Below are positions 4,094 through 23,457 of a DNA stretch of 29,202 nucleotides, one piece after another (within the stretch, counting starts at the first letter, position 1; each line of letters opens with the position of its first letter). The position numbers and the translations under genes are program-made. The notes beneath the pieces are model-generated. The model saw only the letters and a list, made by a program, of their open reading frames with translations. It did not search any database and was not told the origin of the DNA. This DNA comes from a virus, in the IMG/VR virus record IMGVR_UViG_3300037346_000402, positions 1 through 29,202 of that record. The stretch is one strand, 5' to 3'.

Positions 4094-5503
4094 ATGGGTA
4101 AAAGTATTATGGAGCAGCTTGCTCTTCTCTCTCCAGAGGAAAGAGCGGAAGCTATGCTTGACGTTGATCCAGACTCTCTAATTTGGGACTGGACCGTCTG
4201 GGCGCGTCCAGAGCAAATAGCTCCTCCAGGAATTGATTGGAACATCTGGCTTGTTATGGCAGGTCGTGGTTTTGGTAAGACTCGTCTTGCAGCCGAATGG
4301 GTACGCGATATGGCCAAATACACAAATACCGGTAAGCGTCGCTTTGCGCTTGTTGCCCGAACTGCGGCCGACGTTCGTGACGTTATCGTTGAAGGCGAGT
4401 CTGGAATCATCAACGTCTCTCCACCTTCGGAGAAGCCACTCTACGAGCCGTCCAAGCGTCGACTAACTTGGCCCAACGGAAATACTGCCACACTCTTTAC
4501 AGCGGATGAGCCTGATGGTTTGCGTGGTCCTCAGTTCACTCACGCATGGGGTGACGAGATTGCAGCTTGGCGTCAGACTCCAGATGCCGCAGGTATGACC
4601 GCTTTTGATAACCTCAGAGTTGGAACCCGTCTTGGCTCAAACCCTCAGATGGTTGTAACTACCACTCCAAAGCGCGTCCCACTTTTATACAAACTCATTG
4701 AAGAATCCAGAACCGATAAAGGTAACGTAATAATCACTAAGGGTTCCACTATGGACAACGCAGGCAACCTTTCTGGCGCGTACCTAGACACCATTACTGG
4801 CGTCTACGAAGGCACAAACCTGGCTCGCCAAGAGCTTTACGGAGAAATGCTCGAGGACCAAGAGGGGACGCTTTGGAACGAGGAGATGGTTGAGGTAGCC
4901 AGACATGCAATGTATCCATTCTCTACCCCTTTAAGAGTTATTGGTGTTGACCCTTCTGTTGCAGAAAACCCTCGAGACGAGTGTGGAATTGTTGTAGTTG
5001 CTTCTACCGCTGATTATGACCTATACAAGCGTAACGCTTGGGTTCTTGAAGATGCGTCCGTTCACGGTTCCCCAGACACTTGGGCCCGTAAAGTTGTAGA
5101 AATGGCACGTAAATGGGGTTGCCCAGTTGTTGCAGAAGTAAATCAGGGGGGAGCGCTTGTAAAAAACGCAATCCTCTCTATAGACCCGAGCATTAAAGTC
5201 TTAGAAGTACACTCCAAGCACGGAAAACAGCTTCGCGCAGAGCCAATCGTTCTTGCTTACGAGCAGGGCCGCGTTCATCACGTTGGATACCTACAAGATT
5301 TAGAATCTCAGATGTACTCTTGGATCCCAGGAGAGGGGAAATCCCCCGACCGCATCGATGCACTTGTTCACGCACTCACTGCTCTGCTAATTAAGCCACC
5401 GCCTGGCTTTAGCGGAGGCAAAATACGCGCCAAGTCACTCTCAGACAGAAGGCTTCCAAAGAGTGCGATATCTGATCGAGCAAAAATATTTAGAGTTCGC
5501 TAG
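4094..5503 (+). CDS. terL: Terminase large subunit
   Basis: This 469-residue ATP-driven packaging motor and nuclease is of normal length. The N-terminal ATPase has Walker A at 56-63 (AGRGFGKT), Walker B ending in Asp154-Glu155 (FTHAWGDE) and the coupling motif TTTP at 189-192. The C-terminal RNase H-like nuclease shows Asp286 (IGVDPS), an acidic strand at about 348 (AEVNQGG) and Asp419/Asp422 (SPDRIDALVHA). It drives genome translocation into the prohead through the portal. The ribosome site TAGGAG sits close before the ATG. The next gene overlaps by one base (TAGTG). No key residue is missing. Confidence 0.97.
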   Translation: MGKSIMEQLALLSPEERAEAMLDVDPDSLIWDWTVWARPEQIAPPGIDWNIWLVMAGRGFGKTRLAAEWVRDMAKYTNTGKRRFALVARTAADVRDVIVEGESGIINVSPPSEKPLYEPSKRRLTWPNGNTATLFTADEPDGLRGPQFTHAWGDEIAAWRQTPDAAGMTAFDNLRVGTRLGSNPQMVVTTTPKRVPLLYKLIEESRTDKGNVIITKGSTMDNAGNLSGAYLDTITGVYEGTNLARQELYGEMLEDQEGTLWNEEMVEVARHAMYPFSTPLRVIGVDPSVAENPRDECGIVVVASTADYDLYKRNAWVLEDASVHGSPDTWARKVVEMARKWGCPVVAEVNQGGALVKNAILSIDPSIKVLEVHSKHGKQLRAEPIVLAYEQGRVHHVGYLQDLESQMYSWIPGEGKSPDRIDALVHALTALLIKPPPGFSGGKIRAKSLSDRRLPKSAISDRAKIFRVR

Positions 5504-6164: not shown

Positions 6165-7913
6165 TTGGGAATCTTTAATAAAAGCAATAAAAATATTAGC
6201 AAAGCCCCTACTACTGGTAGGTTTAGGGCTTTTGTCCCACGTACCGCTACCCCTATCGCACCCGGGATATCTGTAGACTCTTTCGGCCTTGTCTATGCTG
6301 AGGCTGCCCCATACAATGCACCTAGAGGATTAACCGCCGCCGCTACTCAGATAAAAATTGGCGATAAGACCGAAGCCGAGCAGTTTAAATTTCGTAGACA
6401 GTCAGCTTCTTCATCGTGGCAGACCGAGGCTTGGGAATACTACGACGCAATCGGTGAAGTTAAATATGCGTTCAACTTAGTTGCGTCTGTTGTTTCTCGT
6501 ATTCGTCTCTATGCTGCTTCTGTAGATAATCCATCGGAAGCCCCTGTACCAGTAAATCTTTCTTCTATGATCGACCCGCAACTTGCCAGAGCCGCGGAGC
6601 GTGCTCTGTCTAGGTTGGATTCTGCATATGGAGGCCAGTCTGGACTTTTGAAAGACACCGCCCTAAACTTGCAAGTTACCGGCGAGTGTTATCTAGTTCA
6701 GGTTCCGGAAAGACTTGGAACAGGGCTACCTGAGAGCTGGGACATAAGATCTGTAGACGAGCTGCAAATAGACTCTAGGGGGAACTACATAATTAACCCA
6801 ATCCGTGAGGTTGCTGGGGGATCATCAAGTCAGGGATCAAAGAGTGCGATAAAGCTTCCTAGAGAAGCGTTCATTGGACGTATCTGGAAGTCTCACCCTC
6901 GCTACTCCTTAGAGTCCGATTCATCTCTCCGCGGTCTACTAGATCTTTGCGCAGAGCTACTACTTCTTAACCGTACCTTCCGTGCAACTGCACGTTCACG
7001 CTTGAACGCTGGTGCTCTTTACTTACCAGACGGTTTATCCGTAGCTTCGTCTCCGGACCCAGACTACCCATACGATGAAGAAGGCGAATACAATCAGCAG
7101 TACAACGCTGAAGAAGCTGCCGACGACTTCGAGGATCAACTCATCGATGCTATGACTACTCCTATCAAGGATGAAGATTCAGCAAGCGCGGTAGTTCCAC
7201 TTATTATTCGTGGTCCTGCGGAGCTTGGCGACAAGATCAAGCAGTTTAAGTTTGAGCGCTCGTTCGATGCCTCACTTGTTCAGCGTGCAGACCGAGTCCT
7301 AGAGCGTATTATGCAGGGACTAGATGTTCCAAAAGACGTCGTCACAGGACTAGCAAACGTTAAGTACTCAAACGCACTTCAGATTGATGAAGCGCTATAC
7401 AAGGCACACATCGAGCCGCTAATGCTACTTATTGTGGACGCCCTTACTGTTGTCTACTTACGTCCTTACCTAATCGCAAACGGATATGACGAAGAGTCTG
7501 TGTCTAGAATTCAGATCTGGTATGACCCAAGTCAAGTAGCAACAAGAAACGACAGGGCAACTGACGCAGATAGCGGCTTCGACAAACTGGCAGTGTCTTA
7601 CGACACTTGGAGAAGAGCTCACGGTTTCTCCGATGCAGATGCCCCTAGTCCAGCCGAACTTGCACTCCGTCTTGTGATTAATAAGGGAATGATTACCCCA
7701 GAACTTACTCAAAGTATGTTGGAGGCAGTTGCCCCAGAACTTAGAGAGCTAATTAACAAGGCAAGTCAGGCTACCTCAGTTGCGCCAATGCCTCCTGGCA
7801 TAGATCAGCTTCTATCAGGGCAACCTGTAGAGCCTGAACCTGAACCCGCTCCTCCTGCTGAAGCTGCGCCTCTTGCAGAACCAGTAATGCCGGAAGGCGG
7901 ACAACCTCAGTGA
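6165..7913 (+). CDS. Portal protein
   Basis: This 582-residue dodecameric channel protein at the head vertex is the docking site for the terminase and later the tail. Order, size and content fit: an N-terminal segment, the wing/stem region (KDTALNLQVTGECYLV), a long helical crown region with LLLNRTFRATARSRL, then DVPKDVVTGLANVKYSNALQ with a long helix behind it. The C-terminus is a Pro/Glu/Ala-rich tail (about 545-582), probably disordered. The TTG start at 6165 is supported by GGGAGA 4 bases upstream. It is followed directly by the Dps-like gene with overlapping start and stop. Confidence 0.9.
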   Translation: MGIFNKSNKNISKAPTTGRFRAFVPRTATPIAPGISVDSFGLVYAEAAPYNAPRGLTAAATQIKIGDKTEAEQFKFRRQSASSSWQTEAWEYYDAIGEVKYAFNLVASVVSRIRLYAASVDNPSEAPVPVNLSSMIDPQLARAAERALSRLDSAYGGQSGLLKDTALNLQVTGECYLVQVPERLGTGLPESWDIRSVDELQIDSRGNYIINPIREVAGGSSSQGSKSAIKLPREAFIGRIWKSHPRYSLESDSSLRGLLDLCAELLLLNRTFRATARSRLNAGALYLPDGLSVASSPDPDYPYDEEGEYNQQYNAEEAADDFEDQLIDAMTTPIKDEDSASAVVPLIIRGPAELGDKIKQFKFERSFDASLVQRADRVLERIMQGLDVPKDVVTGLANVKYSNALQIDEALYKAHIEPLMLLIVDALTVVYLRPYLIANGYDEESVSRIQIWYDPSQVATRNDRATDADSGFDKLAVSYDTWRRAHGFSDADAPSPAELALRLVINKGMITPELTQSMLEAVAPELRELINKASQATSVAPMPPGIDQLLSGQPVEPEPEPAPPAEAAPLAEPVMPEGGQPQ

Positions 7914-8369: not shown

Positions 8370-9374
8370 ATGTCTTCATATTTAGATACCGTTTTTAGTG
8401 GCGGAGCTGGAGCACCAGCAGAGCTTCTTGATTTAAAGAAAGTTAAGAAAGAAACTGGAGCTGTGACTTTAGAGATTGACACTGTAACCGCTGATGTTGG
8501 AGGTTATGGCGGAGAGTGCCCACCTGCAACTCAAGACATCCAGCTAAACCTCACCAACCGACAGAATGCTATCGACAACGTTGGCTACGGACCACTTAAC
8601 CCAGCAGAACCGAACGAAGAGTTCTGGCAAGATAAAGCTGAGCGTTGGAAGACTAACATTGCAGAAGCCAAATCCGCTCGTTGCGGAACCTGCGTTTTCT
8701 TTGTTCGTACTCCAAAAATGCTTGACTGTATCGAAGAAGGCATCGGTCTAGGAAATCAAGAAGCCGAAGGCTCAATTAAAGCTGGAGAACTTGGCTACTG
8801 TAGCGCTCTCGACTTTAAGTGCGCTTCAGAGCGTACATGTAATGCTTGGGCATCAGGCGGACCAATTACAGAAGAAACAGTAACTGCTGCATCACAAGGA
8901 CCATGCTGGGATGGGTACGTTCAAGTTGGTATGAAGACTAAGGGTGGTAAAGAAGTACCTAACTGCGTGCCAGCTAGCGAAGCCTCTCTTTACGCCACCG
9001 CGGGCTCAAAGCCAGCACCTAAGAAAGACCAAGTAAAGGGCTCAGATAAGAACAAGAAAGGCTCAGCAGATACCGGTAAGGGCGTGACTTTTACAGAAGC
9101 AATTATGACGTCTCTTAAAGATAAAATGGAGACTACTAATGAAAAAGCAAAAAATGGCAGAACAACCACAATGGCTACCCTAAAAGCCGTATATCGTAGG
9201 GGTGCTGGTGCCTTTTCTACATCACATCGTCCAGATCAAAACCGAAACTCATGGGCTATGGCTAGAGTGAATGCGTACTTACATCTATTAAAGACAGGGA
9301 CCCCAAAAAACCCTAAATATACTACAGATAACGACCTGCTACCAAAGGGTCACCCAAAATCAACAAAGAAATAA
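8370..9374 (+). CDS. Cysteine-cluster protein with conserved C-terminal phage module
   Basis: This 334-residue protein has three recognisable parts. Residues 105-164 hold six cysteines (105, 108, 120, 144, 151, 157) in CGTCVFF...GYC...FKCA...TCNAWASGGP. The pattern resembles small iron-sulfur or zinc-binding proteins of the HiPIP type. Residues 179-201 hold PCWDGYVQVGMK...VPNCVP, a short cysteine-bounded motif met in many environmental phage proteins. After a lysine-rich linker comes a conserved C-terminal module (271-330, AVYRRGAGAFSTSHRP then WAMARVNAYL and NDLLPKGHP). The metal-binding role is inferred from spacing. It lies in the head gene block, so it may be a minor head or internal virion protein. 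Confidence 0.8.
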   Translation: MSSYLDTVFSGGAGAPAELLDLKKVKKETGAVTLEIDTVTADVGGYGGECPPATQDIQLNLTNRQNAIDNVGYGPLNPAEPNEEFWQDKAERWKTNIAEAKSARCGTCVFFVRTPKMLDCIEEGIGLGNQEAEGSIKAGELGYCSALDFKCASERTCNAWASGGPITEETVTAASQGPCWDGYVQVGMKTKGGKEVPNCVPASEASLYATAGSKPAPKKDQVKGSDKNKKGSADTGKGVTFTEAIMTSLKDKMETTNEKAKNGRTTTMATLKAVYRRGAGAFSTSHRPDQNRNSWAMARVNAYLHLLKTGTPKNPKYTTDNDLLPKGHPKSTKK

Positions 9375-9447: not shown

Positions 9448-12114
9448 GTGAGCCAATCGTTCGACTCCCTACTCTCTAAAATCGAGAATTACTACTCTGA
9501 TGCGGACTACACTGTCCAGGATGCAGAGCACTTATCTCGCATTGCTATATCAGAGTATGCCAACACTCAGAACTCTCTAGTTGCCTCAGCACGTCAGCTC
9601 TCAACTACGTCTGTACAGAAAATTATTGATCTTACAATCGACAAGCACATCACATCCGACCCGAGTGAGTGGATGCTTTTTGCTGCTAATGCTGTAGACA
9701 ATGTGATCAACTACTCTCACCGTGGTGTACTTGCATCCGGACTTTCTGACTTTACCGACTTACTCCCACTAGGCCACCCGTCTCGTACAAACCGCGAAGC
9801 TATTACTGCATCTGCTTTAAACCATGCAACCGCGCTTTGGGCTGCAGGAGATCCTCGCATTGCATCAGATCAGGCTAGACACGACACATACAAAGCGTAT
9901 GCAAGCAAGCCTGGTTCAGTTGAAGCAGACTATGCCTCTTTTAAACTTGCAGCTTTAGTTGCAGCCGGCTATGTTCCAGATGACATTAGTCTTCCGATAA
10001 CAGCTGCTTTCAAAATGAGCTTTGCAGAGCGTTCTGCTAGGGCAAAAGCTTTAGCCGCGGTGCGCCGCCGTGACCGTAAGCAGCGTTTCGCCGATGAGTT
10101 TGGACGCCTAAAGGGTTTCTTTAGCAGAGGCGATGGGTCTATCTTTACCGGAGACGGAAGAATTGTTGGAGCGCAAGCCGGCACAAATAACTTTGAAGTA
10201 GAGTTCACAGGCAATGAAGAAATTCCAGATGGTATCTACCCTATAGATGCTTCTAAGACCGAATCTGTAAAGGCCAGACTATCTAAGCGTGCGCTAAAAG
10301 GCATAAAAGGTGTAGACAGCATTGCTGTACCAACGAAGGGCGAGCGCGATGCTGCAATCCCCCTAGATCAGTTTCTAGCTACTAAAAAAGATGCTCCAGA
10401 AGGCTGGACTAAAGATGAAGATGGGTCTTTTACTTCTAAGTCTGGACAGACTCTACGTCAGGTAGATGCTCGCCCTGAAGGTGACTACATGTTCGAGGGT
10501 ATCGGAGAGGGTGGTGCAGAGGACTCAACAAAGCCGTTCTTTGAACTAAAAGACCGAAACGGTAAAACAATTGGTGCTGCACAAGATTGGGCTGGCGCAA
10601 ATAAAATTGCAATGACCTATGACGCTCTCGAGGAAGACAGCGACCCAACTCCAGAAGAGGCAGACCAGGACGCCAAAAAGCTCTCTGACAGAAAAATACC
10701 TAATATAGAGCGTACAGCAGATGGTTATGAGGGCGAGACAGAGAAGGCCTCAGTTAGAGTATCCAAAGAGGGAGATAAGTTTAAAGTAGAAAAAGGCGGC
10801 TTCGAGGATATTGATGTTATTTCCGGACAGTACGAATATTTCGAAAAAACACTTTTTGATACAGAAGAAGAAGCACTAGAGGACGCTGACAAGTGGCTTC
10901 GCCTATCTGAGTCGCCAAACTTTTTTGAATTCATGTACAACGACTGGTTTGAAAGTCAGGCCGACGGTCTTGACCAGGACGCCAAAGATCCTAACTGGGC
11001 AGACGAAGCAATTGATTTTGATGACCTAGATAACCAAGATAACTGGAAAGACCTAGGCGGAGGCTCCAGAGAGTACATCTCTCCAGATGGAAAACTAAAG
11101 CTAACCTTTGAGCCAGATGGCGACTCAGGCGGTGAAGGCGGCTTCGTAGACGCCTCCGGAATCGCTATCGAGTATGATGGTCAGTTTGTTGGCAGCTTTA
11201 GGGCAACCGAACGCGACCTCACATCTCCAGGAGAAGTTGCAGATGCTCTTAGTCGTAAGCTACCTGAGACCAATTTTAACCCTAATGATCTAGTAAAAGC
11301 TGATGACAGCGGAGAATACGAGTTTATCCCAGCAAGTGATGTTGGTTCTGTTTCCATTGTAAAAAAGTACAACCCTGCAACAAAGAAGCTATCTTGGGTG
11401 GTCACCAAAGACGTAGGTGACCTCATTGATGAAAATCTTGAGCACTCTTTCTTTGAGCAAAAATCCTTTGACTCTCTAGGTGACGCAAGAGCATATGCTG
11501 AAGAGTTTGCTCAGATTTTAAATGACCCGGACAAAGTTTTTGCTTTCTTAGATCAGGATTTTAGAGATAACCCACCAGGATACGATGGCTTAGATCAGGC
11601 TGCAAAATCTGTCTCCGACAGAGATAGACAGCTCGCTGACGGATATGGAATCTCTCCTCGTGTAGAGCTAGTTTACAACTCTGAGACTAAGCAGTTTGAT
11701 CGTGTGGTAAACCCAGACGAGTTTGAGGCAGACGGTGACCTCTACGACTTCGGTTCGGCAGTAGTTAACTTGTCTGAATACTCCCCTGGCAAATGGGCAG
11801 CAACTATTTTTTACGGAGATAGAGACGGTAGCGGACAAGATACCGTCGAGCTTGAGCAGTTTTTTGACAGCTCAGAAGAGGCTTTTAAGTGGGTTGCTAA
11901 TGGGTTTGGACAACAGTTTGACAGCTCTCAGGTAGCGGAAGGCATCATAGAGCGTAATAGCTCAGTTGAAATGCTAGAGTTCATTAACAGTCCTGAATAC
12001 AAAGATATTGATAAAAACTACCGTCTCTATCGCCGTAAGCCGGACAGAACAGACCTAGAAGGCTTAGATCAGGCTGCAAAATCTGTCTCCGACAGAGATA
12101 GACAGCTCGTCTGA
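9448..12114 (+). CDS. Polyvalent modular protein, first part
   Basis: This 888-residue acidic protein starts with GTG and a strong AGGAAGGA ribosome site. Residues about 1-230 are helical, ending in a basic stretch (AAVRRRDRKQRFADEFGRL). Later parts are small beta-rich modules separated by linkers of the type G-L-D-Q-x-A followed by S-D-R (for example at 10966, 11587 and 12061). Repeated modules end with F-D-(S/T)-x-x-(E/D)-A-x-x-(Y/W)-A. The frame stops at a lone TGA (12112-12114). The same frame then remains open to 13857, so the gene may be read through or may be a recently split longer gene. The final linker is a 49-base exact copy of the one at 11587. Together with the next two frames it looks like one polyvalent protein, a class thought to be carried in the virion and injected. 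Specific function is unknown. Confidence 0.8.
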   Translation: MSQSFDSLLSKIENYYSDADYTVQDAEHLSRIAISEYANTQNSLVASARQLSTTSVQKIIDLTIDKHITSDPSEWMLFAANAVDNVINYSHRGVLASGLSDFTDLLPLGHPSRTNREAITASALNHATALWAAGDPRIASDQARHDTYKAYASKPGSVEADYASFKLAALVAAGYVPDDISLPITAAFKMSFAERSARAKALAAVRRRDRKQRFADEFGRLKGFFSRGDGSIFTGDGRIVGAQAGTNNFEVEFTGNEEIPDGIYPIDASKTESVKARLSKRALKGIKGVDSIAVPTKGERDAAIPLDQFLATKKDAPEGWTKDEDGSFTSKSGQTLRQVDARPEGDYMFEGIGEGGAEDSTKPFFELKDRNGKTIGAAQDWAGANKIAMTYDALEEDSDPTPEEADQDAKKLSDRKIPNIERTADGYEGETEKASVRVSKEGDKFKVEKGGFEDIDVISGQYEYFEKTLFDTEEEALEDADKWLRLSESPNFFEFMYNDWFESQADGLDQDAKDPNWADEAIDFDDLDNQDNWKDLGGGSREYISPDGKLKLTFEPDGDSGGEGGFVDASGIAIEYDGQFVGSFRATERDLTSPGEVADALSRKLPETNFNPNDLVKADDSGEYEFIPASDVGSVSIVKKYNPATKKLSWVVTKDVGDLIDENLEHSFFEQKSFDSLGDARAYAEEFAQILNDPDKVFAFLDQDFRDNPPGYDGLDQAAKSVSDRDRQLADGYGISPRVELVYNSETKQFDRVVNPDEFEADGDLYDFGSAVVNLSEYSPGKWAATIFYGDRDGSGQDTVELEQFFDSSEEAFKWVANGFGQQFDSSQVAEGIIERNSSVEMLEFINSPEYKDIDKNYRLYRRKPDRTDLEGLDQAAKSVSDRDRQLV
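11587..11635 (+). repeat. 49-base direct repeat, copy 1
   Basis: This segment encodes the linker GLDQAAKSVSDRDRQL. It is identical to 12061-12109. Downstream of copy 1 the sequence continues as A-D-G-Y-G. Downstream of copy 2 one extra T is followed by the TGA stop. Confidence 0.85.
12061..12109 (+). repeat. 49-base direct repeat, copy 2
   Basis: This copy is identical to 11587-11635 and ends 2 bases before the in-frame TGA at 12112. It marks a recent duplication of a linker, or a recombination joint, exactly where the giant frame is broken. Confidence 0.85.
12112..12114 (+). other. Lone in-frame TGA between two halves of a giant frame
   Basis: The frame 9448-13857 is continuous apart from this one TGA. 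The next frame has no ribosome binding site before its ATG codons (12157, 12172, 12238). Other genes here end at TGA (3104, 3959, 5866, 7911), so the standard code is in use. Read-through, coupled re-initiation or a decay mutation would each fit. Confidence 0.6.
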
Positions 12115-12156: not shown

Positions 12157-13857
12157 ATGCCCGCACAATTGATGAGAAGAGACCTAGAAGGCCTCGACCA
12201 AAACGCTCCAGAGCCCCTCTCAGCGGGCTGGAAAACCATGGACGAGGACGAAAAGGCAGACATAATAGAGTCGGTCTCCGATTACATCGGCGAGTGGGCA
12301 GAGTCTAATCCTGCAGAGTTTTACACCAACTGGGCTAGATTCGCTTTAGATTCTTACTACAATCCTGACGGCGTAAGAGCATTTGAGAAGCCATATATCT
12401 ATGCTGAAAACTACATGGACTATTTGGCCGACAATGACCCAGAAATGATAGATGTTATTTCTGAAAAACTGGCCTCACCCGGCCTCGACCAAAACGCTCC
12501 AACCAAGCCTCTTTCAGATAAGCAGTTAGAGCCTGCATCAGATGCTCAGTATAACTTCTTACAGAGTTTGGTTGAATCAAAAATGGATGTCGATGCTGAC
12601 ACAATTAAAGCCGTTGAAGAAGCAGCTGGAAATAAGAACCTAAGCAAGGCTCAGGCTGGAGCTCTAATTGGAAAGCTTCGTGCACTTGGTGACAAGGAAA
12701 ACTTAGGTCCTTACGGTAAGCCTTCTCAGAAGATGATTGACTCTGTAAACCGAGATGTTTACGCTAAGGGATTGTCTGACGAAGATAGGGACGCGATTCT
12801 ACAGGATCTAAACTCTCTGTCGAAGGGCGAGGTTTCTAGCATCATAAGTCAGCTTAAAGAGATGCCAAATGTTCTAGGCGGATTAGATAACTACATAAGT
12901 TCTCTTGTTGAAGCCGGAGATATAGAAGCACTTAAGCGTCTACGTTCAGACCCTCGTAATGAGAACTCCTTTACAAACCTAGATCAGTCTATTGCTGGTC
13001 TAGAGTCTGGAGACACTTCGGGATTGGACCAGGCAGCTTCATCAAACGAGCAGTCCGGCCCTCTTTACGATAAGGAAGAAGTTTCTGACTTATTGGATGA
13101 AATAGAAGCAGCAGAAGAGTCCAACGAGATTGGCAATACTTTCCTTCCAAAAGGCCTACTAAACGACTTTGATCCAGAAAGCGTCGGAGACGCAGCCGCT
13201 CTATACGACGAGCTAAATGACGCCATCCCTAATGTAGGTTCATCCGGCACGCTGGGAGCAAAACTAACAGAGATAGCTAAAAACCTACTAGAGAGTATCA
13301 AATCTAGACTCGGCACTATTGAGTTTGCAAAGCGTGACAGAGACGACCTAGGAAGTAGTTCTAAGTTCGATAAAGCAGTAGACGATCTAAATAATTTTGT
13401 TGACTACTACTACCCACTTAAGGCTAGTTCTGATATGGAGAACGATCCTGATGGCGGCAGCGTTGGAGATGTTAGAGGTGGTGGTTGGGAGGCCTCTGTC
13501 AGGTTTAACGAGGAGACTGGCAAGTGGGAAGCAAATATAACCTCACCCGGTCAGGTTTCTGAGAGCTATGGTCAAGAGTTTGATGATCAGGGGGACGCCG
13601 CTGACTATGCATCCGCTGAGCTATATAAGAACAACCGTGAGGCTCTAGACACTGCTACTAATGTGTTATCTGACGGTGGCATGGACTCTCTTATCAGCGA
13701 GTACGGCGATAATCCAGCTGAACTAGCTAATGTCCTAGAAGGTATTATTGAATGGCTTCAGGGCACAAAGCGAGGACAGGCCGAGGAAGTTGCTAGAGCT
13801 TTAAGTGAAGTTGTAGATAGACTTCGTGAAACCTCAACGCCAAACCCAAAAGCGTAG
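12157..13857 (+). CDS. Polyvalent modular protein, second part
   Basis: This 566-residue frame is in the same phase as the one before it and is open from 12115. I give the first ATG, which has no ribosome site. It starts with two short helical modules, each preceded by a GLDQNA linker encoded by an identical 21-base segment (12190-12210 and 12481-12501). A module of the type SDAQYNFLQSLV...LSKAQAGALIGKL follows (about residues 125-185), a small helical domain also met in actinobacterial and phage DNA-related proteins. The last third contains one more beta module (WEASVRFNEETGKWEA...). It ends at a TAG (13855-13857) that overlaps a -1 frameshift signal leading into the next frame, so it is probably internal to a larger product. 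Confidence 0.75.
   Translation: MPAQLMRRDLEGLDQNAPEPLSAGWKTMDEDEKADIIESVSDYIGEWAESNPAEFYTNWARFALDSYYNPDGVRAFEKPYIYAENYMDYLADNDPEMIDVISEKLASPGLDQNAPTKPLSDKQLEPASDAQYNFLQSLVESKMDVDADTIKAVEEAAGNKNLSKAQAGALIGKLRALGDKENLGPYGKPSQKMIDSVNRDVYAKGLSDEDRDAILQDLNSLSKGEVSSIISQLKEMPNVLGGLDNYISSLVEAGDIEALKRLRSDPRNENSFTNLDQSIAGLESGDTSGLDQAASSNEQSGPLYDKEEVSDLLDEIEAAEESNEIGNTFLPKGLLNDFDPESVGDAAALYDELNDAIPNVGSSGTLGAKLTEIAKNLLESIKSRLGTIEFAKRDRDDLGSSSKFDKAVDDLNNFVDYYYPLKASSDMENDPDGGSVGDVRGGGWEASVRFNEETGKWEANITSPGQVSESYGQEFDDQGDAADYASAELYKNNREALDTATNVLSDGGMDSLISEYGDNPAELANVLEGIIEWLQGTKRGQAEEVARALSEVVDRLRETSTPNPKA
12190..12501 (+). repeat. Duplicated GLDQNAP linker, 21-base identity
   Basis: The 21 bases at 12190-12210 and 12481-12501 are identical. 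They encode GLDQNAP and bracket a module of about 90 residues. A related form (GLDQGAP) recurs at 13887, after the frame change. Confidence 0.7.
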
Positions 13858-13874
13858 CCCCCAAAAAGGGGGCT
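13845..13874 (+). promoter_or_regulatory. Candidate -1 ribosomal frameshift signal
   Basis: In the frame of 12157-13857 the sequence C CCA AAA (13845-13851) fits the -1 slippery pattern X XXY YYZ. The stop TAG follows 4 bases later. A hairpin with stem AGCCCCC (13856-13862) and GGGGGCT (13868-13874) and an AAAAA loop begins inside the stop codon. A slip of one base back enters the frame that runs to 16637. That frame is open from 13830, and its first ATG, GTG or TTG is only at 14073. The spacer to the stem (4 bases) is a little shorter than usual. Confidence 0.65.
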
Positions 13875-14072
13875 GACGACAGCGTTGGCCTAGACCAAGG
13901 CGCTCCAAACGCCCAGGCCTTATATAAAACAGTTCGTGACCTAAAGCCAGGCGACTCTGTATACAAAATTAACTCCTATGAGATCGGCACTGTAAAAAGT
14001 AATACAGGACAAAAGGAGGGTGGTTCAATTGAGTACACAGACGGTACAAACCAACGTTACTCAAACCGCCAG

Positions 14073-16637
14073 ATGGTTTCTCAGATTCAAGTTGTAGACC
14101 CAGATAATATTGCCCCTCGTGCCGACAAAACTGATATTGATTTCCCTGGGTACGGAACAGTTGCCCCTGGAAGTAGATCGCGAGATCTCGCTACACCACG
14201 TCAACTAGAGTACATCAAAGAGCGTCTAGATAGTGGAACACTTCCGATCAACTTGGAACAGGGAGCAAAGCGATTCTTAGAAACTGATGGGAGACAGCCA
14301 TTAAAGTCGTACACTAGCGACCTTGTGGGTGCTCTAAAAAAGCATGAGGCTGGACTAAAAGAGCCAGGCCTCAACCAGAGCACTTCGACACTGGACAGAA
14401 TTACTAGTCTTCTCAATAAGTACCGTGAGGCAGCACCTCCACTTAATTCTGGTAGAAACTTTGCTCCAGCAGTCTCTCCAGGCAGCGAAGGTTCTAAGGA
14501 AGCTCCGCAGAAGCTTTCCGAAGAAGAATTTGCCACTAAACAGTCGGAAATTTTAGAGACTAATAAGAACGTACTTCAATCTGTACTGTCTAACATTAAA
14601 GATCTTTTATCGCCGGGGAAATTCGCTTCTTGGCGTAGAACCTTTACTAGGGGCTCTGTACGGCCACTGCCGGTTAACCCTGTTAGTGACTCGTACTACC
14701 GTGGCTCTAACCTTATAGCTCTAGATAACGCTGCATCCGAAAACGGCTTCTCTGACCCTAGATGGATGACGTATTCTCAGATTACACAAATGGGTGGGTC
14801 TGTAAAGCCCGGCACTAAGGGCACAAAAATTCTAGTTCCGACTCTATTCGTCACTGAAGTGAACGGAAAAGTCAAAGAGCTGTACATATTTAAAGAAAAA
14901 ACAGTATTTAACGGTGACCAGGTTGACGGTATCCGACCATACGATCTTGATGATAAAAAGTCTTATACCACTAAAGAAGCGGTTGAAAAACTACTGGATA
15001 GAATCCGTGAGGCCGCTGAGTTACGCAGCGGGAGTGCCCCAACAATGTTCGGTATACAGCTAGATAAAAATGATAATCCTAGGTGGATGCCAAACTACGG
15101 TGGTTCGATTGAAAACATTAGATTGCCTCTTAGGGCTAATTTTGAAAATGACGAGGCTTGGTTTCAGACACTGGCTCATGAGCTAATACATAGTACGGGA
15201 GCTAGAACCAGACTAAATCGTCAAGACGTTAAAGATAGTCTGGCTAAAGATAGTGATGCCAAGGGTAGAGAAGAAATCACCGCTGAGCTAGGATCTTTAA
15301 TTCTTGCACGTATGTTTGGGGTAGGCGTTGATGAAAAAAACTCCGCTGCGTACATTAAAAGCTATCTTAAAAATAAAAACGTACCTGACAAAGAAATTGT
15401 TGACGCAACCCTCCGGGCTCAGTCGGCGGTGGACTACTTGCTAGGCAATGACGTTCTCCCTGTGTGGAACCCAGAGAGCACTAAAGTCGCCCCAACAGAG
15501 CAGTCACTTAGAATGGGTAGCCTGACTCCAGGCTCATCGAGTTTAAACCCAATCCCAGATCCAGACCTGCTTGATTTGCCGGCACCTGGACTAGACCAAG
15601 CAGCTAAAAAACCAGAGAGCACCGGGAAGTCTGTCAGTAAGAGCTCTGAAGCTAAACAAAAAGTTTTAGCTGCTTTATTGGACTCGCTGAAAGACGGAAA
15701 AACTCCTTGGCGTAAGCCGTTTACAGATGGAGCCAACTTTGCTGGTGCGTTTGTATCTAGAAACCCGGCGTCAAAACACATATACACCGGAATCAATGCA
15801 ATGGTCTTAAAGTTCCATCAGCAACTTAACGGTTACGATGACCCACGTTGGATGACGTACAAACAGGCGGAAACGCTGGGAGGAAACGTTAGAAGAGGCG
15901 AAAAGGGCGTGCCAATTCTTAGACCCATTGCAAAGCCGCTAATAAAAGATAAAGACGATGAGATTATTGGCGGCGGCGGTGTGTTCTTTTCGACTGTATA
16001 TGTATTCAATGTTAGTCAAATCGACGGGCTAAACCTGCCTAGTGCTAAGGACGAAGCTGGAGAACCAAAAACTCCACTAGAGGCTCAAGATTTTATATTA
16101 GAACGCTACGCAAAATCTATGGAGGCAAAAGGCCTAAAAGCTCCTGAGGTTGTATACACTTATGTTGGCGCATACGGCAACCACTCTCGCTCTTCATCGC
16201 CCAACTGGGCATCCGGAGCAGACTTAATTACTCTTCCTACTAAAGAGCAGTTTACTAGCCCAGAAGATATGTTTAACACCATCACGCACGAACTAGCTCA
16301 CAGCACAGGGCACAAAGATCGTTTGGACAGGTCCGAGGAGATAAAGGGCTATGGCTCCGATAGTGCTGTAAGAGGTAGGGAAGAGCTGATTGCAGAAATA
16401 TCAGCGGCAATTCTAGCTAGCATGTTTGGTGTAAACAGTGATGTTGACAACACCGCAGCGTATGTTAAAAGCTGGCTAGCTGCACTGAAGGATGACCCTG
16501 AAATGATTACCAAGGCATCCTCGGAAGCACAGAAAGTAGTAGACTATATCTTAGGTATAGATCTCGGAGACTGGAGCCCGGTAGAGGGTTACAGCAGTAA
16601 AGTAAGCAATAAAAAGGAAGAAGAGCCAAATGAGTAA
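14073..16637 (+). CDS. Polyvalent modular protein, third part: tandem ArdC-type antirestriction units with zincin domains
   Basis: From the ATG at 14073 this frame has 854 residues. The frame is open back to 13830, and that leader codes for GLDQGA and a beta-rich segment (DLKPGDSVY...IEYTDG), so it is likely entered by frameshift. There is no ribosome site at 14073. A helical TPRQLEYIKERL module comes first (about 47-98). Two ArdC-like N-terminal domains follow (about 184-287 and 544-652), each holding DPRWMTY and a GG-x-V-(K/R)-x-G-x-(K/G) stretch. Each is followed by a metallopeptidase domain: H369-E-L-I-H373-STG with TAELGS further on, and H739-E-L-A-H743-STG with IAEISA. ArdC proteins bind single-stranded DNA and block host restriction. 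Zincin partners are typical of polyvalent proteins. Action inside the newly infected host is an inference from the family. Confidence 0.88.
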   Translation: MVSQIQVVDPDNIAPRADKTDIDFPGYGTVAPGSRSRDLATPRQLEYIKERLDSGTLPINLEQGAKRFLETDGRQPLKSYTSDLVGALKKHEAGLKEPGLNQSTSTLDRITSLLNKYREAAPPLNSGRNFAPAVSPGSEGSKEAPQKLSEEEFATKQSEILETNKNVLQSVLSNIKDLLSPGKFASWRRTFTRGSVRPLPVNPVSDSYYRGSNLIALDNAASENGFSDPRWMTYSQITQMGGSVKPGTKGTKILVPTLFVTEVNGKVKELYIFKEKTVFNGDQVDGIRPYDLDDKKSYTTKEAVEKLLDRIREAAELRSGSAPTMFGIQLDKNDNPRWMPNYGGSIENIRLPLRANFENDEAWFQTLAHELIHSTGARTRLNRQDVKDSLAKDSDAKGREEITAELGSLILARMFGVGVDEKNSAAYIKSYLKNKNVPDKEIVDATLRAQSAVDYLLGNDVLPVWNPESTKVAPTEQSLRMGSLTPGSSSLNPIPDPDLLDLPAPGLDQAAKKPESTGKSVSKSSEAKQKVLAALLDSLKDGKTPWRKPFTDGANFAGAFVSRNPASKHIYTGINAMVLKFHQQLNGYDDPRWMTYKQAETLGGNVRRGEKGVPILRPIAKPLIKDKDDEIIGGGGVFFSTVYVFNVSQIDGLNLPSAKDEAGEPKTPLEAQDFILERYAKSMEAKGLKAPEVVYTYVGAYGNHSRSSSPNWASGADLITLPTKEQFTSPEDMFNTITHELAHSTGHKDRLDRSEEIKGYGSDSAVRGREELIAEISAAILASMFGVNSDVDNTAAYVKSWLAALKDDPEMITKASSEAQKVVDYILGIDLGDWSPVEGYSSKVSNKKEEEPNE

Positions 16638-16856: not shown

Positions 16857-19800
16857 ATGAATAACCTAATTGGCCGCTCTGGCAGTTTAGCTCTATACGC
16901 TAACAACGAGCACGGAGTCATTATCGACTCTTCCATTGGTGCAGTAGTGGCGAGTGGCGCTGCCCCTGACGTCTATTTTATTCAAAAATGGGAGCCATCT
17001 ACCGTAGAAGAATCTAAGTCAGAAACCTTGCTAGCCGAAAAAGCTCTTGGAGCACTGGAAGAGCGTTCTTTAGTTGCCGCTGGCGACAGAATGTACACCA
17101 TACCCAAAACCGCTCAAGCGGAGGCTAAAAAAGCCCTCGAGTGGAGAAAAGAAGAGGGCAGAGGAGGCACTCCGGTAGGCTTAAACACCGCTCGTATTTT
17201 AGCTAAGGGCGGTCAAATTGGAATCCGAAAAGTTCGTCATATTGCAAAATACTTCCCTCGTCACGAAGTAGATAAAAAGGGCAAGGGTTGGAAGCCGGGG
17301 CAAGAGAATTATCCATCTAATGGGCGCATCGCTTGGGCTCTTTGGGGTGGAGATGCAGCGTGGAGTTGGGCTCGCAGTATTGTAGAGCGCGAGAATAAAA
17401 AGCCAGTTGCTGCTGGCGGGTACGATATCTCTAACCAACCTAATCAGACAACCTACGCAGAATCTAGCGAGGATATCAACCCATTTAAATATGCTAATGA
17501 CCTTGACATGAACTATGGTCCAGAGTTTTTAGTTAGAGTCTGTTTAGACGGTTCCGGAATGGACCGACTATATATGGTAGATATTGACGGATCCATATAC
17601 GTTTGGGACGACTCCAACTGGGACAACATGGGACATGTCGATGGAGACGTATGGTCCTATGACCGCATGTTGGATGACATATATGACGTCCAAGAAAAAA
17701 CTCACATTATTATTGACCCTCAATCGGCACTAAAAATAGCAGCTCGGATGGCAGTAGACCCTGGCTGTAAAGTAACTATGTTTGATCTAGATCAAGATGA
17801 AGCTGCTTTGACTATGTCTGGTATTCAAGACGAAGACTGGGATTTTATTGATCAGGTGATACTTGCTGCCGGAACTGCCGACTCAACATCTGATGCAGAC
17901 AAAGATGGAGACGGAATATTAGACTCTGACTTCTTGTCCGAGAAGGCAGAAAATCAGCCGCGTGATGCCCGCGGGAAGTTTGCGGCTGCAGGCTCTAGAG
18001 TTATTGTTGGTGGCGACGCCCAGCGGGGTGCTGGAACTATAACTAAAGTAGACAGTAAAACAGGCATGGTTTCTGTCAAGCTGGACAGCGGAAAATTTAT
18101 AGATGTAGATGCTAAATATACCGAAGGCGAGAAGGGCTTCACCGGCCCTAGAGCTGTACCTAAAGCTTTAGCCCCCCTAAATATGTCCGGAATTATTGGT
18201 GAACCTAGGACTCCAATTAATATGCCTAAAGCGCACTTAAAGGGAACCCTACCTCCACTTTCTGGTAAAGACATTGACACCATGCTTAACAACTGGCCTA
18301 AATACATTTCAGATATGCGTAAGTCTTACAAGCCTATCGATGCAGCAGACAAAGCTAAAGTAAAGAAAACTTGGGGACTTAAAAAGTTTGCTGGAGAAAA
18401 CTCTATTGTTGCCGCCGCTGAAGCTGAGAAAGATCTAACTCCAGCTACCTCGGATGTGACGCCTAAGTATTTAGCTATAGTTACGGAAGAAGATCCGCAG
18501 AATGTAGTGGACTTAGTCGCTCTTGTCCCAGCTAGCGCAACATCCACAGAGCCAATCGCTTACACAAGGAAAGGTGACAAATGGGAGCGCGACGATCAGA
18601 CCATGGCTGACCTTCGCTCCTCAACTAAGCCTCCTGTCATAGAGCTAGACCAAGAAGCTGTAAATGACGTTTTGGTTCAAATGTCGGAAGACGACGCTAC
18701 CCCAACAAAGACTGTAGAAGAGTTTTCTACTATAGACAGCATTGACTCAATACTCAATGCTTTTGTTGCTGCTGGCGGTTTAGATCGCAACCGTGGTAAT
18801 GCAGAACAGCTACGCCGCTACTGGACTAGTGGCAAAGGTGCTGCCAAAATCCGTTGGGGTACTCCTGGCGACTGGACCCGATGCGTACGACAGCTGTCAA
18901 AGTATATGGGCCCGCGCGCTAAAGGCTATTGCCAGCTACGACACAAGGATGCAACTGGTGTATACACGGGGAGCAAGTTGAACCCGGGGAAAAAGAACTC
19001 TTTGCAGTCATCTATGTTTACATCTCTTGCTGACTTCGAGCAAAAAGTACTAGATCAAAGTATCCTAAGTGCTCGAGCTGGAGCTGCAAAAGAAAAATTT
19101 AACCTAACAGCTGGAGCTGCCCCTGAGATGATGTCAGGTGCTAAATTTAGCATCCCACTTTTGATTCCTGAAGAACTAGAGTCCGGCGACGGTAGAAAAT
19201 TCAAGAAAGACTCTATAAGCATAAGAGAATTGCCTCTACCACTGCTTTGGCAAATCAAAACGGGAGATGGCCACGCCGGTTCTGTTGTAGTTGGTCGAAT
19301 CGACTACATAGAGAGAACTAAAAATGGTCTAGGGAATGCCTACGGTGTTTTTGACATAGGGTCTTATGGAAAAGAAGCAGAGCGTCTAGTTAGAAACGGA
19401 TTTTTAAGAGGGGTCTCAGCGGACCTAGATCAGTTTGAAGCCAAAGAAGATAAAAAACCCAAGACCGAAGGCGCCACTGAGCTTGAGGACGATGGCGAAA
19501 TTGGCAAAGACAAACTCACAGTAAATAAGGCACGTGTAATGGCTGCTACAATTGTAGCTAAGCCTGCATTTCAGGAGTGCACTATATCTATTGACGAATC
19601 AGGCTACCAGGAGGAAGAATACATGCCTTTAACCGACGGTCTCTATGAAGAGACAATTGACTCTACCGTCGAGCCGCTAGTTGCTTCAGGGTTTCTTGAT
19701 TCAGAGATTCCTGTAGTTCCGCCTCAGGGGTGGTTTGAAGACCCTAAGCTAACTAAGCCAACTCCACTAACCGTGGATGCAAATGGTCATGTCTACGGTC

Positions 19801-21425
19801 ACATTGCTGCTTGGCACGTGAACCACATTGGCATGCCTCGCTCGACACGCCCGCCACGATCTCGTAGCAAGTACTCATACTTCCACACTGGAGTAGTTAA
19901 GACCGACACTGGTGCTGATGTTCCAGTAGGACAGCTTACTTTGGCAGGTGGTCACGCTGACTTACAGGCAAATGCATCCCAAGCTGCTAAGCATTACGAC
20001 GACACCGCATCGGCTATTGCTGATGTTCACATGGGTGAGGACGAGTACGGTATCTGGTGTTCAGGGTCTTTAAGACCGGAAGCAACAGAGTCTCAGATTC
20101 GTGCACTGCGTGCTTCTGCTCCTTCAGGTGACTGGCGTCCAATTAACGGCTCTCTCGAGTTAGTTGCTGTATGTCAGGTTAATGTTCCAGGATTCCCTAT
20201 TGCTCGTGCACTAGTTGCCTCCGGTAAAGTTATGGCTCTTGTAGCTGCAGGAGCTAGTTTCTTTGCAATTATGAAAAGCGAGCACGTAGAACACTTTGTG
20301 ACTAGAGCCGAGCTGCTCTCTCAGTTAGCTGCGTCTACACCAGACCTAAAAGCTAGAGTTAAGAAAGCCAAAAAAGAAGCTAAAACTTATGCAATAACTG
20401 CTGCCGCTAACAAAGTGGAGAGCATGCGTGAGCGCGCTCTTATTGCATCAGCTGTAGCAGAGCTTTCAAAAATTAATAACGCTCAGAGGAAGTTTCTAGT
20501 GAACACTGGTAGAGCACTGCCAGACGGCTCTTATCCAATTAGAGGCAAGCAAGACCTTAACAACGCAATAATTGCATATAAAAGAGCTAATCCCGAAGAC
20601 CGCAAGGAAGTTAGGGCTCACATTCGCAAGCGTGCTGAAGAATTAAGTCAAACTGACCTAATTCCAAAAAGCTGGAAAGCTACCGCGGCAACGGACACTG
20701 CCAGCTCTATTGATAAGATGCGCTCACTGATTGCGGCTGCCCGCTCTAGGGTGACCGAGTTTGCCGAAGGCGACGAGATTTCAGACTACGAGTTAGAAAA
20801 GCTTAAAGATTTAAAAACAGAGGCTGACAAGCAGACTGAAGAAGAGATTCAGAAAGCTGAAGACGTTAAGGCTGGTAAAAGTACAGTTACTGACAAGTTT
20901 GACGAAGATGGCCGCACTAAGTTTACTCCAAAAACACAGCCTCGCGACGCTAAAGGAAAGTACCGCAAGGTTTTAGCTAGATTAAAGCAGAATCTAGGTG
21001 TTGCAGGACTTCAGGACGCGCTTTTGAAAGTCCAAGAAGCAGAAAATCTAGAGTTTGCAGGAAACTACACCAAATCAGCAGCAGCTAGCTCTGACCTAAT
21101 TGGACTGATTGACAGACTTGACACTAACGCTTTAAACCCGGAGGCACTAGAGAACGTTAGAGCTACTGCAGCAGAGTTAGGCAAGACTATTGCCAACCTA
21201 CCCCTGCCTTTTGGCAAGGATGCATCAAAATTAAGGTTTAGCGATTTACCGTCTGGACTCAAGGACCTCATCGAGCAGATGATTACTCGAGTCGAGGCCA
21301 AAATTGGTAAAGAGGACTCAGACATTGCCACTAAAGGTCTAAAGTCCTATATGTCCGGAGCAGACGTATATTCCCAGGGTGAGGTTCAGTCTGAGATGAG
21401 CAAGCTACTCCGACTCCTCACCTAA
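16857..21425 (+). CDS. Capsid maturation protease fused to several phage modules
   Basis: This 1,522-residue protein is much longer than a usual maturation protease of 200-700 residues. Modules in order: GIRKVRHIAKYFPRHEV...GRIAWALWGGD (107-180); an acidic beta region (210-320); RDARGKF plus a beta module (367-425); RRYWTSGKGAAKIRWGTPGDWTRC with GYCQLRHKDATG (645-711); the prohead protease core (about 763-885) with His806 (GDGHAG) and Ser854 (GVSADLD), the expected catalytic pair of assemblin-like proteases; a WHVNHIG/YSYFHTG/HYD/SGDWRPINGSLELVA domain (960-1120) known from actinobacteriophage head proteins; a LPDGSYPI...AHIRKRAEEL domain (1214-1270, DUF6582-like); and a second RDAKGKY unit (from 1361). 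It should cleave the scaffold region of the capsid protein. The long tails may act as scaffold or be packaged. Confidence 0.85.
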   Translation: MNNLIGRSGSLALYANNEHGVIIDSSIGAVVASGAAPDVYFIQKWEPSTVEESKSETLLAEKALGALEERSLVAAGDRMYTIPKTAQAEAKKALEWRKEEGRGGTPVGLNTARILAKGGQIGIRKVRHIAKYFPRHEVDKKGKGWKPGQENYPSNGRIAWALWGGDAAWSWARSIVERENKKPVAAGGYDISNQPNQTTYAESSEDINPFKYANDLDMNYGPEFLVRVCLDGSGMDRLYMVDIDGSIYVWDDSNWDNMGHVDGDVWSYDRMLDDIYDVQEKTHIIIDPQSALKIAARMAVDPGCKVTMFDLDQDEAALTMSGIQDEDWDFIDQVILAAGTADSTSDADKDGDGILDSDFLSEKAENQPRDARGKFAAAGSRVIVGGDAQRGAGTITKVDSKTGMVSVKLDSGKFIDVDAKYTEGEKGFTGPRAVPKALAPLNMSGIIGEPRTPINMPKAHLKGTLPPLSGKDIDTMLNNWPKYISDMRKSYKPIDAADKAKVKKTWGLKKFAGENSIVAAAEAEKDLTPATSDVTPKYLAIVTEEDPQNVVDLVALVPASATSTEPIAYTRKGDKWERDDQTMADLRSSTKPPVIELDQEAVNDVLVQMSEDDATPTKTVEEFSTIDSIDSILNAFVAAGGLDRNRGNAEQLRRYWTSGKGAAKIRWGTPGDWTRCVRQLSKYMGPRAKGYCQLRHKDATGVYTGSKLNPGKKNSLQSSMFTSLADFEQKVLDQSILSARAGAAKEKFNLTAGAAPEMMSGAKFSIPLLIPEELESGDGRKFKKDSISIRELPLPLLWQIKTGDGHAGSVVVGRIDYIERTKNGLGNAYGVFDIGSYGKEAERLVRNGFLRGVSADLDQFEAKEDKKPKTEGATELEDDGEIGKDKLTVNKARVMAATIVAKPAFQECTISIDESGYQEEEYMPLTDGLYEETIDSTVEPLVASGFLDSEIPVVPPQGWFEDPKLTKPTPLTVDANGHVYGHIAAWHVNHIGMPRSTRPPRSRSKYSYFHTGVVKTDTGADVPVGQLTLAGGHADLQANASQAAKHYDDTASAIADVHMGEDEYGIWCSGSLRPEATESQIRALRASAPSGDWRPINGSLELVAVCQVNVPGFPIARALVASGKVMALVAAGASFFAIMKSEHVEHFVTRAELLSQLAASTPDLKARVKKAKKEAKTYAITAAANKVESMRERALIASAVAELSKINNAQRKFLVNTGRALPDGSYPIRGKQDLNNAIIAYKRANPEDRKEVRAHIRKRAEELSQTDLIPKSWKATAATDTASSIDKMRSLIAAARSRVTEFAEGDEISDYELEKLKDLKTEADKQTEEEIQKAEDVKAGKSTVTDKFDEDGRTKFTPKTQPRDAKGKYRKVLARLKQNLGVAGLQDALLKVQEAENLEFAGNYTKSAAASSDLIGLIDRLDTNALNPEALENVRATAAELGKTIANLPLPFGKDASKLRFSDLPSGLKDLIEQMITRVEAKIGKEDSDIATKGLKSYMSGADVYSQGEVQSEMSKLLRLLT

Positions 21426-21546: not shown

Positions 21547-23457
21547 GTGTACGACCAAATTAAAACTCAGCTGGACACCATTGCTGAGCTTAGCGACGAA
21601 CAAGTCGCGGAGCTTCAGGCAGATGTTGTCTCGCAGTTTGAAGTGGTTGAGGGTGAAGATCCAACTCCTGAGACAGTTGATGCTATGACGTCGCTAGCCG
21701 ATTCTCTTGACATGATTCGTGGCGAGCTTTCTCGCCGTGAGTCAATGGCTTCAGAGCTTGCAGCCCAAGCCGCTGAGGCTGTTGCTCGTGTTAAGGGCCA
21801 AGCTGACGACGAAGGAGAGGAAATGGCTATGACCGAAGACGAGCCTATGGCGGAGGAAACTCCTATGGAGGAAACTCCAGAAATGCCGGAAGCCGAAGTC
21901 GAGGAAGACAAGGAAGAGGACAAGGAAGATGAGGATGAGGCAATGAAAGCTTCAGCTGAAATCTCCGAGGACGCTCCCGAGCTTACTACCGACGCTCCAG
22001 CCGAAGCATCAACCAATCAGGAAGACGGTTCAGAACTATCAACCGAAAACACAGGAGAAACTGCAGAGCTAGCAACCGAGGTTGCTGAAGGTTCTGAAGC
22101 TTCAACTGAAGAAATCATCGATTCATCAATCGCTCTTGTAGAAGAGCAGGAAGAGCAGGCCCCAGTGACCGCTTCAGCCGACCAGCCTTTCGAGGCCCCA
22201 GCTGACCGCCAGCCTGTTGTTCAGGTTACCGAAGTTCCAGTAGCAATTACTGCTGGTGCTGACATTCCTGGTTACACAGCTGGTAGCACAATCAACGACA
22301 TGTACGAAGTAGCTCAGGCTATGGAAAAGCGAATCCACTCGCTTCGTCGTGTCAATGGAGGAGACGGAGAGCAGCACATCGTTGCATCCGTAACCACCTC
22401 GTTCCCAGAGGAGCGCATCCTCTCAACCGACGCAGAGTCTAACTCAGCTAAGATCAGTGCAGTATCTACTCAGAACGCACTTGTTGCTTCTGGTGGACAC
22501 GGTGCACCGCTCGAGGTCAAGTATGACATCTACGAGCTCGGTTCTACCACCGTTCGCCCAGTTCGTGACTCCCTGCCACGTTTCCAGGCTGACCGTGGCG
22601 GTATCCGTTTCGTAACCCCGCCAAGCTTTGCTGCTGGCTCATACGCTGACGCTGTTGGTGTATGGACTGCTGCTGTAGATGCTGACCCACAGAGTGCTGT
22701 AAAGACCAGCCTCACTGTATCAGCTGCTACAGAGCTTACTGCTACAACTGACGCTGTAACCCTACAGCTACAGTTCGGTAACCTTATGACTCGCGCTTAC
22801 CCAGAGTTGATTGCTCGTCACAACGAGCTAGCTCTAGTACAGCACGCACGTGAGGCCGAGCAGTACATCCTAGGAAAGATTGATGGCGGTTCTACTGCTG
22901 TTACTTCTGGAACCCTAATCGGTTTTGGTCGCGACTTCCTAGTTACAGTTCGCAAGGCAGCCGTTGCTTACCGTTCACGTCACCGTATTGCTCAGAGCAC
23001 TCAGCTCAAAGCAATCATTCCTGACTGGGTATACGACGCAATGGCAGCTGACCTAGCTCTAAACATGCCTGGAGACGGTAACCTGTCTGTTGGTCGTGGA
23101 GAGATCGAGGGTTACCTTGCTCAGCTAAACGTATCGCTAGTTGCATCACCTGACATGACCGTTTACGGTGCTCAGGGCGCAGCTGCTCTACTAGAGTTCC
23201 CGGACCAGTTCGACTGGTACCTATTTGCCGAGGGAACATTCTTGTTCCTTGACGGTGGTTCTCTAGACCTAGGTATCATCCGCGATAGCTCACTTGTTGG
23301 CACCAACGACTACAAAATGTTCGTTGAGACCTTCGAGGGTGTTGCAAAAGTTGGTATTGAATCTCTACGCATTCGCCAGGCCGCTAACGTTAACGGTGTG
23401 GCCGCTGCTCTTCGCGACACCACTGGTGGCGCTGAAGCTGCTGCGATCGAGGTCTAA
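21547..23457 (+). CDS. Major capsid protein with N-terminal acidic scaffold-like region
   Basis: This 636-residue protein starts with GTG behind a perfect AGGAGG ribosome site. Residues 1-85 look helical, and 88-205 are very acidic (Glu/Asp/Thr/Ala rich, low complexity). About 235-620 have the length and character of an HK97-type capsid protein of actinobacteriophages (IRFVTPPSFAAG, QFGNLMTRAYPEL, EAEQYILGKIDGGS, VAYRSRHRIAQSTQLKAIIPDW, YGAQGAAALLEFPDQFDWYLFAEGTFLFLDGGSLDLG is the conserved tail part, shown in pieces). The N-terminal third probably acts as a delta domain that guides assembly and is removed by the upstream protease (known for the fold, inferred here). Codons in the capsid part look more regular and GC-richer than in neighbours, fitting high expression. 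Confidence 0.93.
   Translation: MYDQIKTQLDTIAELSDEQVAELQADVVSQFEVVEGEDPTPETVDAMTSLADSLDMIRGELSRRESMASELAAQAAEAVARVKGQADDEGEEMAMTEDEPMAEETPMEETPEMPEAEVEEDKEEDKEDEDEAMKASAEISEDAPELTTDAPAEASTNQEDGSELSTENTGETAELATEVAEGSEASTEEIIDSSIALVEEQEEQAPVTASADQPFEAPADRQPVVQVTEVPVAITAGADIPGYTAGSTINDMYEVAQAMEKRIHSLRRVNGGDGEQHIVASVTTSFPEERILSTDAESNSAKISAVSTQNALVASGGHGAPLEVKYDIYELGSTTVRPVRDSLPRFQADRGGIRFVTPPSFAAGSYADAVGVWTAAVDADPQSAVKTSLTVSAATELTATTDAVTLQLQFGNLMTRAYPELIARHNELALVQHAREAEQYILGKIDGGSTAVTSGTLIGFGRDFLVTVRKAAVAYRSRHRIAQSTQLKAIIPDWVYDAMAADLALNMPGDGNLSVGRGEIEGYLAQLNVSLVASPDMTVYGAQGAAALLEFPDQFDWYLFAEGTFLFLDGGSLDLGIIRDSSLVGTNDYKMFVETFEGVAKVGIESLRIRQAANVNGVAAALRDTTGGAEAAAIEV

Follow-up and report, generated by a model that had tools for sequence, protein, structure and literature searches.

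The locus described here raises the question of how a giant phage gene is read when its parts lie in different frames. The gene is found in the window, by which we mean the whole stretch of DNA analyzed: virus record IMGVR_UViG_3300037346_000402, 29,202 bases long and probably a fragment. It encodes a polyvalent protein in three pieces, the last of which continues in the -1 frame (Table 1). Our analysis indicates that a programmed -1 ribosomal frameshift very probably yields a short polyvalent protein and a longer form that bears ArdC. This conclusion is based on sequence comparison, which establishes that the shift signal is present and conserved, that selection acts on the -1 leader at the protein level and that some relatives have the two parts fused in frame.

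Table 1. Positions of the polyvalent gene, its frameshift signal and neighboring genes in the window.
Feature	Position	Strand	Description
Terminase	4094-5503		
Portal	6165-7913		
Polyvalent gene, first part	9448..12114	+	888 aa from a GTG start, with GLDQ linkers; frame shared with ORF A
Zero-frame ORF A	12157..13857	+	566 aa; ends PKA-stop; relatives 45-62% identical
-1 frame leader without ATG/GTG/TTG	13830..14072	+	GLDQGA linker
-1 frame ORF B	13845..16637	+	two ArdcN + MPTase-PolyVal (zincin) units, GLDQ linker between
Slippery heptamer C_CCA_AAA	13845..13851	+	shares the frame of ORF A; relatives have CCCAAAA or AAAAAAA
Zero-frame stop TAG	13855..13857	+	
Stimulatory hairpin, candidate	13856..13874	+	starts 4 nt past heptamer, loop AAAAA
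Capsid maturation protease (P0004)	16857..21425	+	adjoins polyvalent gene; query of motif-blind survey
Major head protein	21547-23457		

ORF A consists of repeated, helical-looking modules with GLDQ-x-A linkers between them, and ORF B contains two ArdcN and two MPTase-PolyVal stretches (E 1.9e-43 and 4.6e-48). Several conflict-type domains, including ArdC-N and MPTase-PolyVal, and the linker-joined modules of ORF A mark the product as a polyvalent protein. The B part varies between phages: it is a double ArdC in this window, and in the relative L080 (4441-9765) the -1 part is longer and has a predicted ADP-ribosyltransferase exoenzyme domain (PF03496) ahead of the ArdC units. For most of the A and B parts in other relatives, no Pfam family scored above its threshold. 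In four relatives without ArdC (L042, L049, L052 and L066), the shift comes directly after a conserved small domain (..GDxxYxxDGxxLG..YLDxxGxxQ..); a stretch resembling this domain also lies within the -1 leader of the window. The upstream part of the gene is broken in frame by a TGA at 12112-12114, followed at 12157 by an ATG without a Shine-Dalgarno sequence. One relative, L013, has a single continuous ORF across the region that matches this break. The repeated linker GLDQAAKSVSDRDRQL directly precedes the TGA, which suggests a recombination scar.

The polyvalent gene sits among head and packaging genes (terminase, portal, protease and major head protein), and a major tail protein and a head-tail adaptor are also encoded in the window. 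This neighborhood suggests that the polyvalent protein is probably packaged inside the head and enters the host together with the DNA, as predicted for phage polyvalent proteins (Iyer et al. 2017, PMC5512222). The host is likely actinobacterial, because the protease places Actinomycetia phage DSL-LC01 and large Microbacterium phages closest among annotated phages. A scan of bacterial genomes with the protease gave 14 loci, nearly all of them short matches in Streptomyces and other actinobacteria, and none was a full-length match. When annotated phages were searched with the nucleotide sequence of the window region, no match was obtained. Similarly, tblastn of ORF A and of the A and B parts of L052 found no match in annotated phages, so there is no earlier annotation for comparison.

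The standard -1 frameshift signal in bacteria and phages is an X_XXY_YYZ heptamer with a hairpin downstream of it. The window has a phased heptamer, a downstream structure and a long open -1 frame that lacks its own initiation signal; across divergent relatives the signal is conserved and the leader is under coding selection. ORF A ends with CCA (13846-48) AAA GCG TAG, preceded by C, which places CCCAAAA in X_XXY_YYZ phase. An earlier note on this DNA had described this slippery site in the upstream frame, together with a stop and a GC-rich hairpin, and all three elements are present as proposed. In the hairpin, AGCCCCC (13856-13862) pairs with GGGGGCT (13868-13874) to form a stem of 7 bp. Only 4 nt separate the heptamer from the core stem, which is a rather short spacer; in several relatives it measures 5-6 nt. 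The 30 nt past the heptamer have a folding energy of -17.9 kcal/mol, a value reached by none of 400 sampled in-frame positions of the same gene, and the hairpin has a z of -5.2 compared to dinucleotide shuffles. The window's 7,806 codons contain CCCAAAA or AAAAAAA in frame just 4 times. Another in-frame CCCAAAA lies at 9353-9359 in ORF 8370-9374, whose stop codon ends 15 nt further on; the -1 frame there would add only 13 residues. At the position of the tail assembly chaperone, an ORF pair (28032-28370 and 28316-28753) overlaps in the -1 direction; no X_XXY_YYZ heptamer was found in that overlap. Readthrough of the TAG was considered and ruled out: the zero frame closes within ~40 nt, and conservation is absent there.

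The signal was used to scan IMG/VR (2.9 million viral contigs) with the pattern CCCAAAAGCNTANCCCC-(3-9)-GGGG. Sixteen stretches matched, compared with 0 for a reversed control pattern of equal composition. Every match was in phase with an open frame (at least 80 codons visible) that closes there, and in every case the -1 frame was open. Polyvalent relatives among the matches were L002 and its copies, L013/L017, L016, L020, L024, L028 and L029. The remaining matches belong to other phages and fall in genes for major head proteins (L014 and L018; L019, L022 and L027 by likeness) or a major tail protein (L026; L023 by likeness), which are a known place for -1 frameshifts. In L014 (2343), L018 (955) and L026 (5769), which are unrelated phages, C_CCA_AAA_GCN_TAR and a C/G-rich stem close the gene, and the C-terminal extensions are 21-64 aa long. 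When the heptamer's first three positions were left unconstrained, the scan also recovered L035 and L037, two polyvalent ArdC relatives in which A_AAA_AAA replaces C_CCA_AAA. This replacement would keep tandem slippage, as selection for slipping predicts. Three other hits of the relaxed scan (L034, L036 and L038) were rejected as chance-like, since they are not at the end of a long ORF.

In a second survey, loci were picked by the neighboring protease rather than by the motif; 80 were fetched, and 57 remained after most near copies were removed. The ORFs upstream of the protease in these loci included 36 pairs that overlap in the -1 direction. A phased CCCAAAA or AAAAAAA was present in the overlap of 22 of them, each from a different locus (22 of 57), and in all 22 the stop ends 3-6 nt past the heptamer. 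The other 14 pairs have a start codon -19 to +11 nt from the stop, like ordinary gene pairs, and the heptamer was found in 0 of 5 pairs that overlap in the +1 direction. Every relative that carries the shift is a metagenomic contig. The shift was absent from the four annotated phages examined (DSL-LC01, Pumpernickel, Cece and Mimi), in which the polyvalent gene is uninterrupted.

These surveys bear on whether the shift is an artifact, in which one base was gained or lost in the homopolymers of a continuous gene. Homopolymers are error-prone, and the nearby in-frame TGA at 12112 means that the contig may hold further interruptions. However, the same out-of-frame geometry recurs in many independent contigs from many metagenomes with differing heptamers and hairpins, and errors would not pick two heptamers in slip phase or set a hairpin downstream of each. 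A mistake confined to this contig cannot account for the shift, because the same arrangement occurs at 22 other loci with two heptamers and different hairpins. We consider a sequencing or assembly error extremely unlikely; the shift signal is almost certainly real because it is kept across many divergent relatives.

The earlier note had proposed aligning homologues to see whether the slippery site and hairpin are kept. The site is indeed kept, as CCCAAAA or AAAAAAA, and so is the position of the hairpin, the sequence of which changes (GGGCCG/CGGCCC in L043, GGGGCTG/CAGCCCC in L049). Long branched stems are found in L052, L069, L071 and L074. In most relatives the hairpin ranks within the top few per cent of positions of its own gene by folding strength (30 or 45 nt); those of L043 and L113 are weak when 45 nt are folded, and L058 has a z-score of only -0.6. 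The strong GC stem could instead mark a transcription terminator or attenuator, the -1 overlap being incidental. This reading has next to no probability in our judgment: the stem is not followed by a U tract, and heptamer phase and stop spacing are conserved together with a hairpin whose loop and stem sequences change in a constant position. Slippage of RNA polymerase, which would add or drop bases in the A run and so join the frames in the mRNA, is a further alternative. The heptamer is A7 in three polyvalent ArdC relatives and several others, and poly-A runs are also prone to polymerase slippage (PMC3711429). On the other hand, the A run that follows CCC is no longer than A4 in this window and in over half of the relatives, and polymerase slippage needs neither the X_XXY_YYZ phase nor the hairpin, both of which are kept. 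We regard transcriptional slippage as highly improbable and favor slippage by the ribosome.

Are the two frames parts of one protein? The -1 frame is open from 13830 (after a TGA at 13827-29) and translates as PKSVAPKKGADDSVGLDQGAPN...; 930 codons are open. Its first ATG, GTG or TTG is at 14073, 76 codons past the heptamer's first base, and has no Shine-Dalgarno sequence. The open frame, the late start without a ribosome site and the GLDQ-x-A linker of the leader had all been reported in the earlier note and are correct; GLDQGA occupies leader codons 15-20. An AGGAGG at 14014-14019, which that note overlooked, lies 8 nt ahead of an in-frame ATT (14028) in the -1 leader. ATT is a very rare start codon. 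The segment that holds both (14014-14030) is an insertion missing from the nearest relatives.

In the alternative reading of two separate genes, the ArdC part starts at the 14073 ATG or the 14028 ATT, through independent initiation or termination-reinitiation. The AGGAGG and its ATT would fit such a start, and the hairpin could help coupling, but the Shine-Dalgarno-like stretch is in the window-specific insertion and relatives share no start. The first codon at which each could start is 12 to 180 codons in; these codons do not occupy homologous places and have no clear Shine-Dalgarno sequence. Some are at least 100 codons in, and that of L029 (codon 144) falls within ArdC. Ordinary pairs in the survey, by comparison, start close to the stop. 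Moreover, the leader between the hairpin and any start is selected as protein: ArdC relatives display purifying selection in the -1 frame, with pN/pS of 0.04-0.55, synonymous sites being near saturation in more distant pairs. We consider separate genes very unlikely. On these comparisons, a separate gene and a sequencing error both appear effectively excluded.

Other observations connect the two frames. Linker type agrees on both sides of the shift (GLDQ in this phage, GFAQ/GFSQ in L080), which indicates that linkers evolve together across it. In L053, L055, L057 and L062, homologues of A and B are joined in one frame through a ..RGPK.. junction, which lines up with the place where other relatives shift, and in L104, L108, L109 and L114 ArdC is in frame with a long polyvalent array. 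Homologues in which A and B are separate genes with their own ribosome sites, named in the earlier note as contrary evidence, were looked for among the relatives and none was found. Leader selection, matching linkers, in-frame fusions and the lack of a shared start support the note's view that the two frames form one protein.

A quick protease tree of 61 rows (24 with the shift, 37 without) allowed us to follow the signal through the family. The states CCC, AAA and no shift require 13 changes on this tree, compared with a mean of 21.6 in shuffles. The shift state appears to be inherited yet often switched, and recombination between the protease and polyvalent genes could inflate the count of changes.

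These results suggest a model in which ribosomes translating the polyvalent gene reach C_CCA_AAA, where the hairpin would cause some of them to pause. The tRNA-Pro and tRNA-Lys would then re-pair one base back on CCC AAA in a standard tandem -1 slippage. The ribosome would read on in the -1 frame, adding PKSVAPKKGADDSVGLDQ... and the double ArdC/metallopeptidase part, to give a fused product with the shift-spanning peptide ..TSTPNPKSVAPK.. The other ribosomes, expected to be the majority, would stop at the TAG and release the short product. We infer that ribosomes slip here, with some efficiency, and, from the gene's setting, that both products enter the head and are delivered by injection; selection may keep the ratio of short to long form. 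It is reasonable to propose that the shift sets the amount of ArdC made.

Recoding in phages has been described mainly for tail chaperones and for capsid and tail proteins (recoding review PMC5009743). In gene 10 of T3/T7, the head and tail genes of Lactobacillus phage A2 and the coat of Listeria phages A118/A500, a -1 shift likewise occurs close to the end of a late protein made in abundance and adds a C-terminal domain to some copies, and relatives may carry the same extension in frame, as we observed here (PMC5009743). Those extensions are short, often Ig-like and located on the capsid or tail surface, whereas those in the present family add 265 to ~1,800 aa to a giant multi-domain protein. 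The tail chaperone G/GT of lambda and many tailed phages also relies on a -1 tandem slip on a heptamer that gives short and long products in a fixed ratio, but in another gene with another role. The polyvalent proteins described by Iyer et al. 2017 (PMC5512222) are similarly giant, contain ArdC-N and MPTase-PolyVal and are encoded near portal and head genes; frameshifting is mentioned 0 times in that study, whereas here a recoding signal divides the array. The earlier note had remarked that frameshifting in polyvalent genes is not commonly described, and in keeping with this we found no report of it in the open literature (most subscription papers lie outside this scope). The case is one of a known -1 mechanism in a new kind of gene.

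Retroviral Gag-Pol offers a parallel, in that an enzyme-bearing minority form is built on an N-terminal part common to the majority form; the phage proteins have no homology to it, and their packaging is deduced from gene context. It is tempting to speculate, although we think it rather unlikely, that injected effectors are dosed in a similar manner. The frameshift would fix a minority of chains bearing ArdC or other enzymes, which would be co-packaged through the shared N-terminal array and cut at GLDQ/GFAQ linkers by the neighboring capsid protease. This would result in a set ratio of effectors per virion, with the signal gained, lost or heptamer-swapped many times in the family. The major head protein lacks the GLDQ/GFAQ motif, so its processing gives no support to the linkers as protease sites.

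To our knowledge, phage recoding is known almost only from tail chaperones and from capsid and tail decoration. Annotations of injected anti-restriction factors may be wrong, because gene callers would break up genes of this type and report the ArdC part as a gene of its own. The natural variants (two heptamers, several hairpins, and relatives with and without the shift) provide a ready comparative set for phage frameshifting; the closest annotated relatives of these phages have actinobacterial hosts. In this uncultivated family, recoding would govern the make-up of giant, probably injected, counter-defense proteins.
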